A stretch of DNA of 64,000 nucleotides from Cellulomonas flavigena DSM 20109 (GTDB lineage Bacteria > Actinomycetota > Actinomycetes > Actinomycetales > Cellulomonadaceae), in contig NC_014151.1 in NCBI RefSeq assembly GCF_000092865.1, positions 124,001-188,000 on the forward strand. The letters are read 5' to 3'. The position numbers and the translations under genes are program-made. The notes below the pieces were generated by a model. The model was not told the origin of the DNA. It did no database searches and worked only from the letters and a program-made list of their open reading frames with translations. This document shows positions 4,341-8,275 of the stretch, one piece after another (position 1 is the stretch's first letter; each line of letters starts with the position of its first letter).

Positions 4341-6692
4341 TCAGAGGGTCGCGCGGACCGTGCGGGTCGCGGTGACCAGGTGCTCGAGGGAGGGCGTGAC
4401 CTCCTCGTAGCGGCGCGTCTTGAGGCCGCAGTCGGGGTTGACCCAGAGCTGGTCGACGTCGATGGTGCGCACGGCCTCGGTGAGGAGCTCCGTCACCTCG
4501 TCCTGCGACGGGACGCGCGGGGAGTGGATGTCGTAGACGCCCGGTCCGACGGCACGCGGGTAGCCCGCCGCGGCGATGTCGCCGAGGATCTCCATCTTCG
4601 AACGCGCCGCCTCGATGCTCGTCACGTCGGCGTCGAGCCCGTCGATCGCCTCCATGATCTCGCCGAACTCCGAGTAGCACAGGTGCGTGTGGATCTGGGT
4701 CTCGGGCCGCACGCCGGCGGTCGAGAGCCGGAACGAGCGCACCGACCAGTCGAGGTACGCGGCGTGGTCCTTCTCGCGCAGCGGGAGGAGCTCGCGGATC
4801 GCGGGTTCGTCGACCTGGACGATGCCGATGCCGGCGGCCTCGAGGTCGGCGATCTCGTCGCGCAGCGCGAGCGCGACCTGGTTGGCCGTGTCGCCGAGCG
4901 GCTGGTCGTCGCGGACGAACGACCACGCGAGGATCGTCACCGGGCCGGTGAGCATGCCCTTCATCGGCTTCGAGGTCAGCGACTGCGCGTACTGCGCCCA
5001 CGCGACCGTGATCGGCGCCGGGCGCGAGACGTCGCCCCAGAGGATCGACGGGCGGGTGCAGCGCGAGCCGTACGACTGGACCCAGCCGTTCTGCGTCACG
5101 GAGAACCCGTCGAGGTTCTCGGCGAAGTACTGGACCATGTCGTTGCGCTCGGGCTCGCCGTGCACGAGGACGTCCAGGCCGATCTGCTCCTGCAGCTCGA
5201 CGACGCGGCGGACCTCCGCCTTCATCTCGTCCTCGTACTGCTCCGCCGTGAGCTCGCCCTTTCCGAACGCCGCACGGGCCTTGCGGATCTCCGGCGTCTG
5301 CGGGAACGAGCCGATGGTCGTGGTCGGCAGGGCCGGCAGGCCGAGGCGCGCGGCCTGGGCGGCCTTGCGCTCGGCGAACGGGCCGCGGCGGAACTGCTCG
5401 TCGGTCAGCGCGGCGACGCGCTCGCGGACCTCGGGGCGCACGACGCCGGGTGCGGTCGCGCGCGACGCGACGGCCTGGGACGCGGCGGCGAGCTGCTCGG
5501 AGATCGCGTCGCGGCCCGCGGTGAGGCCCTCGGCGAGGGTCGCGACCTCGCGCACCTTCTCGTCGGCGAACGCGAGCCAGTCCACGAGCGTGCGGTCGAG
5601 CGCGGGCTCGTCCTCGAGCGTGTGCGGGACGTGGAACAGCGACGTCGAGGTGCCGACGGCGACCGCGGCGGCGCCGAGTGCTCCGAGCTGCTCGAGCAGC
5701 GCGAGCTTCTGCTCGAGGTCCGCGCGCCAGATGTTGTGGCCGTCGATCACGCCACCGACGACCGTCTTGCCGGCCAGGCCCGCGACGGGCACCGACGGGA
5801 CGTCGCCGCGCACGAGGTCGAGCGCGACGCCCTCGACGTCGGTGGCTGCGACGACGGGCAGCGCCGCGCCGAGGTCGCCGTACGGGGCGGCGAGCAGGAT
5901 CGCGGGGCGCGACGGGCGCGCGAGCTCGGTGGCCAGGACGCGGTACGCGCGGGCCGTCGCCTCGGCGAGGACCTCGGCCGGGACCCCGACGGTGTCGGCG
6001 ACGAGCGCGGGCTCGTCGAGCTGCACCCACGTGGCGCCGGCGGCGGCGAGCTCGGTGAGCAGGCGCACGTAGACCGGGAGGATGTCGTCGAGGCGGTCGA
6101 GCGGCGAGAAGCCCGCCGGGGCGTCCTCGGTGGGCTTGGCCAGCGCGAGGTACGTGACGGGGCCGACGACGACGGGCCGCGTGAGCACACCGTCGGCGAG
6201 CGCCTCGGTGAACTCGGCGACCGGGCGGTCGGACGCGTAGCGGAACGTGGTGCCGGGGCCGATCTCGGGGACGAGGTAGTGGTAGTTGGTGTCGAACCAC
6301 TTGGTCATCTCGAGGGGCAGGTCGTCGCCGCGGCCGCGGGCCACCGTCGAGTAGCCGGCGAGGTCGAGGCGGCCGTCGGCGTCCTGCAGGTCCGCGAAGC
6401 GCTCCGGGACGGCGCCGACGAGCGCGGTGGCGTCGAGGACCTGGTCGTAGAAGGAGAAGGCGCTCGGGATGGCCGCGGCGTCGGTCGCCAGGCCGAGCTC
6501 GGCGAGGCGCGTGCGCGTGCGGCGGCGCAGGTCGGCGGCGACGGCCTCGACCTCGTCGGCCGACGTGCGGCCGGCCCAGAACGCCTCGAGGGCCTTCTTG
6601 AGCTCGCGGCGCGGGCCGATCCGCGGGTAGCCGAGGACGGAGCCGGCGGGGAAGGCCGGGGTCGCCGGCGCGGCGGGCGTGGTGTCGGTCAT
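4341..6692 (-). CDS. metE: 5-methyltetrahydropteroyltriglutamate--homocysteine S-methyltransferase (cobalamin-independent methionine synthase)
   Basis: A 783-aa protein that transfers a methyl group from 5-methyltetrahydropteroyltri-glutamate to homocysteine, the last step of methionine synthesis, in the cytoplasm. It opens with GYPRIGPRRELKKALE, the family hallmark. The zinc and homocysteine site is seen in the C-terminal barrel: HTHLCYSEFGE near residue 667, then NPDCGLKTRRYEE near 755, giving the expected His, Cys and Cys ligands. The ATG overlaps the metF stop (ATGA), so it is translated with metF, whose product supplies its methyl donor. The operon lies behind a SAM riboswitch, so it should be off when SAM is plentiful. 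Length is normal for the family. Confidence 0.97.
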   Translation of the reverse strand: MTDTTPAAPATPAFPAGSVLGYPRIGPRRELKKALEAFWAGRTSADEVEAVAADLRRRTRTRLAELGLATDAAAIPSAFSFYDQVLDATALVGAVPERFADLQDADGRLDLAGYSTVARGRGDDLPLEMTKWFDTNYHYLVPEIGPGTTFRYASDRPVAEFTEALADGVLTRPVVVGPVTYLALAKPTEDAPAGFSPLDRLDDILPVYVRLLTELAAAGATWVQLDEPALVADTVGVPAEVLAEATARAYRVLATELARPSRPAILLAAPYGDLGAALPVVAATDVEGVALDLVRGDVPSVPVAGLAGKTVVGGVIDGHNIWRADLEQKLALLEQLGALGAAAVAVGTSTSLFHVPHTLEDEPALDRTLVDWLAFADEKVREVATLAEGLTAGRDAISEQLAAASQAVASRATAPGVVRPEVRERVAALTDEQFRRGPFAERKAAQAARLGLPALPTTTIGSFPQTPEIRKARAAFGKGELTAEQYEDEMKAEVRRVVELQEQIGLDVLVHGEPERNDMVQYFAENLDGFSVTQNGWVQSYGSRCTRPSILWGDVSRPAPITVAWAQYAQSLTSKPMKGMLTGPVTILAWSFVRDDQPLGDTANQVALALRDEIADLEAAGIGIVQVDEPAIRELLPLREKDHAAYLDWSVRSFRLSTAGVRPETQIHTHLCYSEFGEIMEAIDGLDADVTSIEAARSKMEILGDIAAAGYPRAVGPGVYDIHSPRVPSQDEVTELLTEAVRTIDVDQLWVNPDCGLKTRRYEEVTPSLEHLVTATRTVRATL

Positions 6693-7768
6693 GACAGGTT
6701 TCCTCGCGGTGTCGTGGCGGTCGCTCCGGCGGGGGTGCCGCCGGACGGGTCGTGCGGGGTGACGGCACAGCGGCGGCCGTCGAGCAGGTCGGCGCCGTCG
6801 AGCAGGTCGAGCGCCGCCTCGTGCTTGTTGAAGGTGTAGACGTGGACGCCGGGGGCGCCGCCGTCGAGGACGGCGTTGACCAGGTCGACGCCTGCCTGCG
6901 TGCCGCGGCGGTGGCGCTCGACCGGGTCGTCGGTGGAGCCCAGCAGGTCGAGCAGGTGCCGCGGCACGGGGACGCCGGAGAGCTCCTGGACGCGCAGCAG
7001 CCGTGCAGGGTCGGTGGTCGGGATGATGCCCGGCACGATCGGGATCGTCACGCCCGCCTGCCGGGCCTCGGCGACGAGACCCAGGTACGCCTCGGCGTCG
7101 TAGAAGAGCTGCGAGATCGCGAAGTCGGCCCCGGCCTCCTGCTTGGCGAGCAGGGCCTGGACGTCCTGGGCGCGCGTGCCGCCGGTGGCGTGGTTGCCGC
7201 GCGGGAACGCGGCGACGGCCACCGACAGGGGGCGCACCCGGGCGCGGACGGCCTGCGCAGGGCTGCGGCCGCACCGGCGCTGCTCGAGGTCGCGCAGGAG
7301 CTCGACGAGCTCGGCGGCGGTGTGGACACCCTCGGGGTGGGGTCGCCAGTCCGGCTGGCCCACGGGCGGGTCGCCGCGCAGCGCGAGGAAGGAGCGCACG
7401 CCCTCGTCGAGGAACTCCTCGACGATCGTGGAGACCTCGGTCCGCGACGTCCCGACGCAGGTGAGGTGGGCGATCGGGTTGAGCGAGGTCTCGCGCAGCA
7501 GCCGGCGCACGAACGCGCGCGTGGTCTCGCGCGTCTTGCCGGAGGCGCCGTACGTCACCGAGACGAAGTCGGGCTCGACGGTCTCGACGGCGCGCACGGT
7601 CTCCCACAGGCGCGGCGCCGCGTCGGGGTTGCGCGGGGGGAAGAACTCGAAGGAGACGGTCGGACGGTCCAGGGCGCCGGCCTGCTCGGCACGACGGCGC
7701 GCGGCGCGTGCGCGACCCGGCGCGCTCGGTGCGGCGGGGACGGTCCCGGTCTCGGCCACGACGCTCAT
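6689..7768 (-). CDS. metF: Methylenetetrahydrofolate reductase
   Basis: A 359-aa flavoprotein that reduces 5,10-methylenetetrahydrofolate to the 5-methyl form used by MetE. Recognisable stretches are TVSFEFFPPRN near the start, DFVSVTYGASG, HLTCVGTSR, FLALRGDPP, and AKQEAGADFAISQLFYD, all typical of the MetF TIM barrel. I chose the ATG giving MSVVAETG: it overlaps the TGA of a 31-codon upstream ORF (ATGA) and has almost no ribosome site of its own, which suggests coupled translation. A longer in-frame extension runs through the riboswitch DNA and is not coding. It overlaps metE by 4 bases. The N-terminal 30 residues are Ala/Arg-rich and poorly conserved. Confidence 0.95.
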   Translation of the reverse strand: MSVVAETGTVPAAPSAPGRARAARRRAEQAGALDRPTVSFEFFPPRNPDAAPRLWETVRAVETVEPDFVSVTYGASGKTRETTRAFVRRLLRETSLNPIAHLTCVGTSRTEVSTIVEEFLDEGVRSFLALRGDPPVGQPDWRPHPEGVHTAAELVELLRDLEQRRCGRSPAQAVRARVRPLSVAVAAFPRGNHATGGTRAQDVQALLAKQEAGADFAISQLFYDAEAYLGLVAEARQAGVTIPIVPGIIPTTDPARLLRVQELSGVPVPRHLLDLLGSTDDPVERHRRGTQAGVDLVNAVLDGGAPGVHVYTFNKHEAALDLLDGADLLDGRRCAVTPHDPSGGTPAGATATTPRGNLS

Positions 7769-7860
7769 CGCGCCGTGCGCGCGACCGGACGCGCGGTGGT
7801 GGGGCGGGTGGTCACGGGACCGGCCGCTCGGCACGAGGGGTCGGCGGTGCGCACGTTCAT
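7765..7860 (-). CDS. 31-aa upstream ORF (leader peptide) of metFE
   Basis: A short frame, MNVRTADPSCRAAGPVTTRP and 11 more residues, preceded by GGAG five bases before the ATG. It ends in TGA overlapping the metF ATG. The GGAG partly overlaps the closing stem of the SAM riboswitch, so this ORF, and not metF directly, carries the controlled ribosome site. The peptide has one Cys and no Met after the start, so a classical amino-acid-count attenuator is not obvious. It probably delivers ribosomes to metF by start-stop coupling. The peptide itself may have no role of its own. Confidence 0.6.
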   Translation of the reverse strand: MNVRTADPSCRAAGPVTTRPTTARPVARTAR

Positions 7861-7867
7861 CGTCACT

Positions 7868-7957
7868 CCATCGTTCCTGGCGGAAGCACCCACACCCTCG
7901 CGCGGAGGGGGGTTGCTGCGGCGTCGTCGAGCCAGGTCTCTCAGCCGCTCTGGATGG
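7868..7957 (-). promoter_or_regulatory. SAM riboswitch (S-box class) controlling metFE
   Basis: On the minus strand the order of elements matches the S-box aptamer. P1 is CCATC at 7957-7953 pairing with GATGG at 7872-7868. Next comes AGAGCGGCTGAGAGACCTGG (junction and P2), then CGCCGCAGCAACC, then GGTGCTTCC and CCAGGAACGATGG. The core AGAG..G.GAG.GA...GCAACC...GGTGC is that of SAM-I family riboswitches. The 3' half of P1 overlaps the GGAG of the upstream ORF (7869-7866), which argues for control of translation: with SAM bound, P1 forms and hides the ribosome site. No U-run terminator is seen after it. Whether it is subclass I or IV needs a covariance search. Confidence 0.85.
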
Positions 7958-8056
7958 TCGCAAGGATCGTAGCCCGGCTGCCCGGATGGCGGACAGGGGG
8001 GATCGCTGGATGAGACGGGGGCGTCCGCGCTGCGTGCGAGAGCCCCGCCGGCTGCG

Positions 8057-8275
8057 TCAGCGGCGCCGGCGCTGCAGTGTCGGCGTCGACTCGCGCGACG
8101 TCCGCTGGTGCGGGAGGCCGAACCACGACGTCGTCGGAGCCGCGACCGGCACCGCGAGCAGGCCGTCCTGGACGGCCTCCAGGACGTACGGGTCGGACTC
8201 GCCCGGCGACAGCCACGCGGCGTGCGCCGCACGCACGGCGTCGCGCCGTCCGTCGTGCTCCACGTGGTTGGTCAT
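8057..8275 (-). CDS. Small conserved-looking protein, unknown function
   Basis: A 72-aa soluble protein with strongly GC-biased third codon positions, starting ATG behind an AGGGTG ribosome site. Its centre, SDPYVLEAVQDGLLAVPVAAP, and the tail rich in Arg do not match a family I know. It lies upstream of the metF riboswitch on the same strand, about 100 bases before the aptamer begins, and is probably its own transcript. It could be a spurious frame, but codon use and the start site favour a real small gene. Confidence 0.5.
   Translation of the reverse strand: MTNHVEHDGRRDAVRAAHAAWLSPGESDPYVLEAVQDGLLAVPVAAPTTSWFGLPHQRTSRESTPTLQRRRR

Follow-up and report, generated by a model that had tools for sequence, protein, structure and literature searches.

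A SAM-I riboswitch that may act on metF through a short overlapping leader ORF in Cellulomonas and related actinobacteria

Introduction

One demonstrated case is known to us in which a riboswitch relays its signal through a short upstream open reading frame (uORF), in Mycobacterium tuberculosis. There, according to passages of PMC11260477, the B12 riboswitch of ppe2 masks the Shine-Dalgarno (SD) sequence of a short uORF, uPPE2. In the same passages, PPE2 is described as having no obvious SD of its own and an AUGA overlap with uPPE2, and its expression, as judged from reporters and blots, needs translation of the uORF and proceeds mainly by termination-reinitiation. Actinobacterial amino-acid attenuators, such as that of metL in Streptomyces lividans (in the portion of PMC8079986 that deals with it), likewise place a short leader ORF before a methionine gene. 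None of the matches listed in the open-access literature describes a SAM riboswitch acting through a uORF; PMC9971707 pairs the terms 'SAM riboswitch' and 'uORF', but in the relevant part of that source the uORFs are attenuators.

Here, we describe a metF-metE locus in a 64,000-nucleotide stretch of the Cellulomonas flavigena DSM 20109 chromosome (hereafter the window), at which a SAM-I aptamer precedes a short leader ORF that overlaps metF. The layout resembles that of uPPE2-PPE2, as far as PMC11260477 portrays it, in having an SD within the switch helix, an overlap of stop and start codons, and a main gene without an SD. It differs in ligand, aptamer, and gene, and in that an anti-TIR stem is reported in those passages to do the masking, whereas in metF the P1 helix itself overlaps the SD. 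Unlike uPPE2-PPE2, the metF layout is kept over many species, where it alternates with a direct form lacking the leader ORF. Among SAM-I (S-box, RF00162) riboswitches, with which it shares the aptamer core and a full-length match, the metF locus is distinguished by a P1 of 5 bp that would also serve to mask the SD and by a leader ORF as first target. The SAM-IV and SAM-I/IV families belong to the same clan, are also actinobacterial, and have a short P1. In contrast to the attenuators, no terminator-like site was found around the metF leader by a consensus scan, the leader stop codon overlaps the gene start, and the amino-acid bias of the leader is suggestive only. Taken singly, ligand class, aptamer, and reinitiation relay are already known; their proposed combination here, in which SAM would control metF by relay with P1 as the SD-masking arm, together with its conservation and evolutionary toggling, was not among the open-access literature matches listed.

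Results and discussion

The elements of the locus all lie on the minus strand and are given below in window coordinates, in the direction of transcription.

7966..7971, minus strand: putative -10 element TACGAT (TAnnnT), from conservation in genus loci
7854..7960, minus strand: SAM-I riboswitch aptamer (RF00162), covariance match of 53.2 bits
7953..7957, minus strand: 5' strand of P1, CCATC, from sequence
7868..7872, minus strand: 3' strand of P1, GATGG, from sequence
7866..7869, minus strand: ribosome site GGAG of the leader ORF, its GG common to P1, from sequence
7765..7860, minus strand: 31-codon leader ORF (MNVRTADPSCRAAGPVTTRPTTARPVARTAR), stop included, from sequence
7765..7768, minus strand: ATGA overlap of leader stop and metF start, from sequence; RTGA kept in relatives
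6689..7768, minus strand: metF, methylenetetrahydrofolate reductase (PF02219, MTHFR; E 8.9e-71)
4341..6692, minus strand: metE, cobalamin-independent methionine synthase (PF01717 and PF08267, Meth_synt_1/2)

An earlier note on this DNA had recognized a SAM riboswitch from the letters, and a covariance search of the window with Rfam confirms it: RF00162 matches at 7960-7854 with 53.2 bits against a gathering score of 44.4 (E 2.1e-9), covers the whole model (1-108), and is the sole Rfam match within the window at gathering scores. The note had left the choice between SAM-I and SAM-IV models to such a search; no other family of the clan scored better, and SAM-IV or SAM-I/IV identity was not supported: clan competition left RF00162 as the sole model, both here and throughout the 20 loci scanned (window plus relatives). 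The P3 of the window aptamer, unlike that of the SAM-IV type, ends in a short loop, for which no PK-2 partner (PK-2 as presented in part of PMC6890682) was visible by eye. The linkage of SAM-I to methionine genes holds here as well, with metF and metE assigned by Pfam downstream of the aptamer.

The remaining architecture proposed in the note also agrees with the sequence coordinates. Two bases of P1 (CCATC/GATGG) also belong to the GGAG that serves the leader ORF: GATGGAGTGACGATG comprises the 3' strand of P1, the GGAG with two of its bases in P1, a 5-nt spacer, and the ATG at 7860. The leader ORF runs from this ATG (7860-7858) through 31 sense codons to a TGA at 7767-7765, which overlaps the metF ATG (7768-7766) as ATGA. 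No GGAG, GAGG, or AGGA is found at the usual distance before the window metF, and the leader peptide has no Pfam match at an E value of 0.001.

A consensus sigma-70 promoter scan found nothing at the metF leader. Three bases mark the putative -10 element, namely T (-14), A (-13), and T (-9), counted from P1; each is kept in 75-76% of 79 genus loci, and TAnnnT is the -10 element reported for S. lividans in the consulted sections of PMC8079986. The position of this element at 7971-7966 and the conservation of its key bases suggest that transcription of the metF mRNA starts near the 5' edge of the aptamer.

We propose, with a probability of about 80%, that the locus is a translational OFF switch on the leader ORF whose state is relayed to metF by termination-reinitiation. 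SAM would bind the aptamer and stabilize P1, which would then take up two bases of the leader GGAG and keep ribosomes from loading; with the leader uninitiated, metF, lacking a ribosome site, would be silent too. At low SAM, P1 would open and the leader ORF would be translated, and ribosomes arriving at its TGA would reinitiate on the overlapping ATG or GTG of metF. The leader ORF would thus serve as a landing pad that passes on the riboswitch signal.

Many Firmicutes SAM-I riboswitches work by transcription termination, and the same action might occur here, with the leader ORF as a by-product. We regard it as highly unlikely, given that a consensus scan of 7600-8200 revealed no intrinsic terminator-like site, on which ground transcription attenuation was likewise rejected, and that the start codon follows P1 by 7 nt, leaving no room for a separate expression platform ahead of the start. 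Action of Rho after a block of translation would add to the translational reading, not replace it.

Thermodynamic folding does not by itself predict a clean switch, nor any difference between loci with and without the leader. When folded without constraint, the window sequence reaches -52.1 kcal/mol, as compared with -47.7 kcal/mol with P1 forced, so that P1 is not favored, and the bases of the GGAG are mostly paired in the free state (unpaired probabilities of 0.26, 0.25, 0.96, and 0.03). The mean unpaired probability of the SD is 0.40 over 52 leader-class loci (one of them actually direct) and 0.37 over 27 direct loci; these similarly low values mean that the SD is not predicted to be open without SAM in either class. 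The letters of P1 are identical in the relatives compared, and this invariance gives P1 no covariation support. By eye, no pseudoknot between the P3 loop and the leader ORF was seen in the genus of the window, where the loops are short and have no common partner.

A different P3 occurs in Cellulosimicrobium, Sanguibacter, Luteimicrobium, Antribacter, and their kin, in which this region of the aptamer reads GGAAGCCTCC (loci L139, L141-L143, L146-L149, L164-L176, L216, L217, L219-L230, L233, L234, L236, L251, and L256). A complementary GAGGC or GGCTTCC recurs within the codons that immediately follow the start, whether the locus is of the leader or the direct form, and could possibly form a SAM-IV-like PK-2 that closes over the start codon. 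As measured by stretch length, the complementarity averages 6.1 against 5.6 in shuffles, and most of the 43 rows do not exceed their shuffles.

The conservation of the layout was followed in the genus, where RF00162 and metF are each found in 79 of 81 genomes. The survey comprises 80 metF loci from 79 genomes (one genome has two; a second, weak MetF match in genome G059, with 36% identity, was left out). Aptamer and leader ORF occur together at 51 of these loci, metF stands directly behind the same site at 28, and one has no aptamer by pattern. The leader ORFs follow the same GATGGAG..ATG. They range from 10 to 34 codons in 16 different lengths, and all 51 end in an RTGA (24 ATGA, 27 GTGA) whose RTG is in the metF frame; the distance from leader ATG to RTG is 2 mod 3 in 51/51 despite the 16 lengths. 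The earlier note had held that metF lacks a ribosome site and had pointed to relatives in which the ORF might be lost and a metF site kept. The first claim stands in the window and extends to the genus, where a strict SD precedes 50/51 leader starts and only 1/51 leader-type metF starts; as for the second, the relatives keep the leader ORF with its invariant overlap, and no metF SD replaces it upstream of an unchanged metF start. Mean duplex energies with the anti-SD give the same picture, at -6.59 kcal/mol for leader starts, -3.47 for metF starts, and -3.22 for random positions.

The base before the leader stop is also biased. In a thinned set of 21 leader ORFs, all have a purine before TGA, although C and T make up 62% of third positions (chance 1.4e-9), and 10 have A, which accounts for 6% of third positions (chance 7.6e-8). 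This bias fits selection for a start codon and not for a stop alone, and the overlap, the frame, and the SD pattern are together what selection for coupled starts would be expected to give. They suggest annotating metF in these genomes from the RTGA onward.

A start for metF that owes nothing to the leader was weighed against these data. Initiation without an SD is common in actinobacteria (17% of transcripts are leaderless in S. lividans, according to the part of PMC8079986 concerned), and metF might be entered in this way with the leader ORF incidental. The metF frame is open above RTGA in 48/51 leader loci, the window included, where it is open all along the leader; only 3/51 have a stop in this frame between the leader ATG and the RTG of metF, and at least one in-frame start-like codon lies further downstream in 50/51. 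What fixes the start is therefore the conserved overlap; stops do not fix it and leave room for an SD-less metF start upstream in frame. We nevertheless consider independent entry quite unlikely, as it leaves unexplained why the frame never varies, why RTGA persists at 16 different lengths, and why a purine precedes TGA. The last of these bears as well on programmed frameshifting, by which leader ORF and metF would be joined into one protein and of which a minor product is mentioned for uPPE2-PPE2 in passages of PMC11260477. Frameshifting needs no A or G before TGA, yet one is present in 51/51; the peptides encoded by the leaders are highly diverse and are absent from direct-form species, so that we assign this explanation almost no probability.

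A conserved peptide as the function of the leader was also rejected. Substitutions inside the leader ORFs amount to 0.198, 0.125, and 0.150 at the three codon positions, and the absence of a third-position excess gives no sign of purifying selection on the whole peptide. GC contents of 0.68, 0.77, and 0.87 by codon position are weakly coding-like.

The coupled leader could, in addition, carry a second input. An early Cys codon would tie metF-metE output to charged tRNA-Cys, since stalled ribosomes would not reach the RTGA. Cys occurs in 44 of the 51 genus leader ORFs, and in 25 of these 44 the earliest Cys is codon 6 or 7 (range 4-17). In the thinned set, 16/21 leaders have Cys, as compared with 9.7 ± 2.1 in dinucleotide shuffles (2/500 as high), and the total of 24 Cys exceeds the 12.5 ± 3.0 of the shuffles (0/500); over all 51 leaders, there are 66 Cys codons in frame against 35 and 17 in the other frames. 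Cys-bearing leaders are found also in genus g17 (7/7), genus g2 (2/2), Kineococcus, and Ruania. The thinned set, however, has 19 Cys in the +1 frame against the 24 in frame, near enough that base composition may explain much of the excess. Cys is missing from 7/51 genus leaders, from genera g14 (0/3) and g11 (0/3), from Occultella, and from three coupled loci of other families (L266, L267, and L277); single Cys codons would presumably be weak sensors, and the scan of 7600-8200 revealed no terminator-like site. We judge this two-input version improbable and treat Cys sensing as a lead, not a result. Slightly more doubtful is its formulation as an in-line gate, in which loading would need low SAM (P1 open) and reaching metF would need enough cysteinyl-tRNA for the early Cys codon. 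Were such a gate real, cysteine shortage would keep homocysteine from MetE, for cysteine synthesis, and some 200 nt would hold both a riboswitch and a reinitiating leader ORF that senses cysteine.

Downstream, the stop of metF and the start of metE overlap as a second ATGA (6692-6689). The earlier note had metE following metF by this overlap; the overlap is present, but metE also has a purine-rich, GAGGA-like (SD-like) site of its own before its ATG (gaggaaacctgtcATG, also given as gaggaaacctgtc). With this site, metE need not depend on coupling alone and may load ribosomes itself. Judged by these start regions, metF is the only one of the two genes that would clearly depend on the leader ORF.

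The metF loci of other genera of the family were also surveyed. We drew 40 loci from a 200-genome family search, with at least one per genus among the matches listed; genera g4, g6, g7, g9, g13, g18, g19, and g22 lie outside these 40, and some metF loci of g6 and g9 are of the direct form. Over the 16 genera sampled, 23/40 loci have a leader ORF, with the RTGA overlap in the metF frame in 23/23; 14/40 are direct, and 3/40 have no aptamer by pattern. Of the last three, G124 has an aptamer that the pattern missed, and G144 and G113 have only P3-like remnants (150 nt). The shortest leader has four codons, MEAS (G170). A set of 80 named GTDB loci divides into 51 with a leader ORF, 22 direct, and 7 without an aptamer by pattern, again with RTGA in frame in 51/51; many species are common to this set and the genus survey, so the counts must not be added. 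Counted among the 7 is L237, which looks leader-type and was not parsed by the pattern. The leader form is present in Cellulomonas (C. fimi HM71, C. uda, C. gelida, C. biazotea, C. terrae, C. iranensis, and others) and also in Cellulosimicrobium, Luteimicrobium, Paraoerskovia, Kineococcus, Occultella, and Ruania. Three further metF-like coupled cases, with metF recognized by eye, are L266, L267, and L277 in other families.

Leader and direct forms are interspersed. Two direct forms that stand among leader forms are those of Cellulomonas composti (L208) and Cellulosimicrobium funkei JCM 14302 (L223); C. hominis is also of the direct type. In L223, the protein opens with MTSEASFAHRPG, much as the leader peptide of L220 does, and continues without a break into MetF, as if leader and metF had been fused by deletion. 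For the MetF comparison, four of the 80 named rows were dropped because they lack the MetF core motif (L237, L253, L254, and L255); one part of the analysis also left out L248, whose MetF row is aberrant. On a quick MetF tree of 77 rows, in which 20/74 inner branches are weak, the two forms require at least 7 changes; the starred branches by themselves force 4 changes if the leader form is counted and 5 if the direct form is. The tree does not separate gain from loss of the leader form. Because metF stands directly behind the same site in other species, the relay is dispensable and has arisen or disappeared in the course of evolution.

These patterns indicate that, within one branch of the actinobacteria, passing a riboswitch signal on by way of a short coupled ORF is an arrangement that is conserved and that evolution can reverse. 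Close relatives with and without the leader behind the same aptamer provide a natural experiment on what the ORF contributes, be it tightness, noise, or a second input. The metF locus further suggests that the targets of other riboswitches may be overlooked short ORFs.

As a separate observation, Cellulomonas marina (L212, G026) and G013 have the direct form, and the N-terminus of their MetF (MTDRPRCPRGADVCPPG... in L212) resembles a Cys-bearing leader peptide fused in frame.

Other SAM riboswitches were met in the course of the surveys. The C. flavigena genome has a second SAM-I copy (L002, G000:C1:3269128-3269225), which lies directly before a rhodanese-like gene (named by eye) with its own GGGAGG and no leader ORF. 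At L024 (genome G037, aptamer 1501-1602), the riboswitch of a rhodanese gene precedes an eight-codon leader ORF, MTHETRPA, whose stop overlaps the start of the rhodanese gene as ATGA; this is another gene that shows the metF design. In other families (L261, L263, L264, L268, L269, and L270), SAM riboswitches stand before short ORFs like MRSPLFLTTRRHVDLLRQSSALPPRR or MKVLITRRVIDHMRRGVTACQRS, without the RTGA overlap; we take these ORFs to resemble actinobacterial leader peptides. Finally, four genomes of genus g15 (G094, G116, G132, and G145) have a second RF00162 match on the strand of the metF match and shortly downstream of it. In G094, for instance, it lies at G094:C1:4648407 and the metF match ends at 4648396, so that a separate SAM riboswitch may serve each of the two genes, metF and the one after it.
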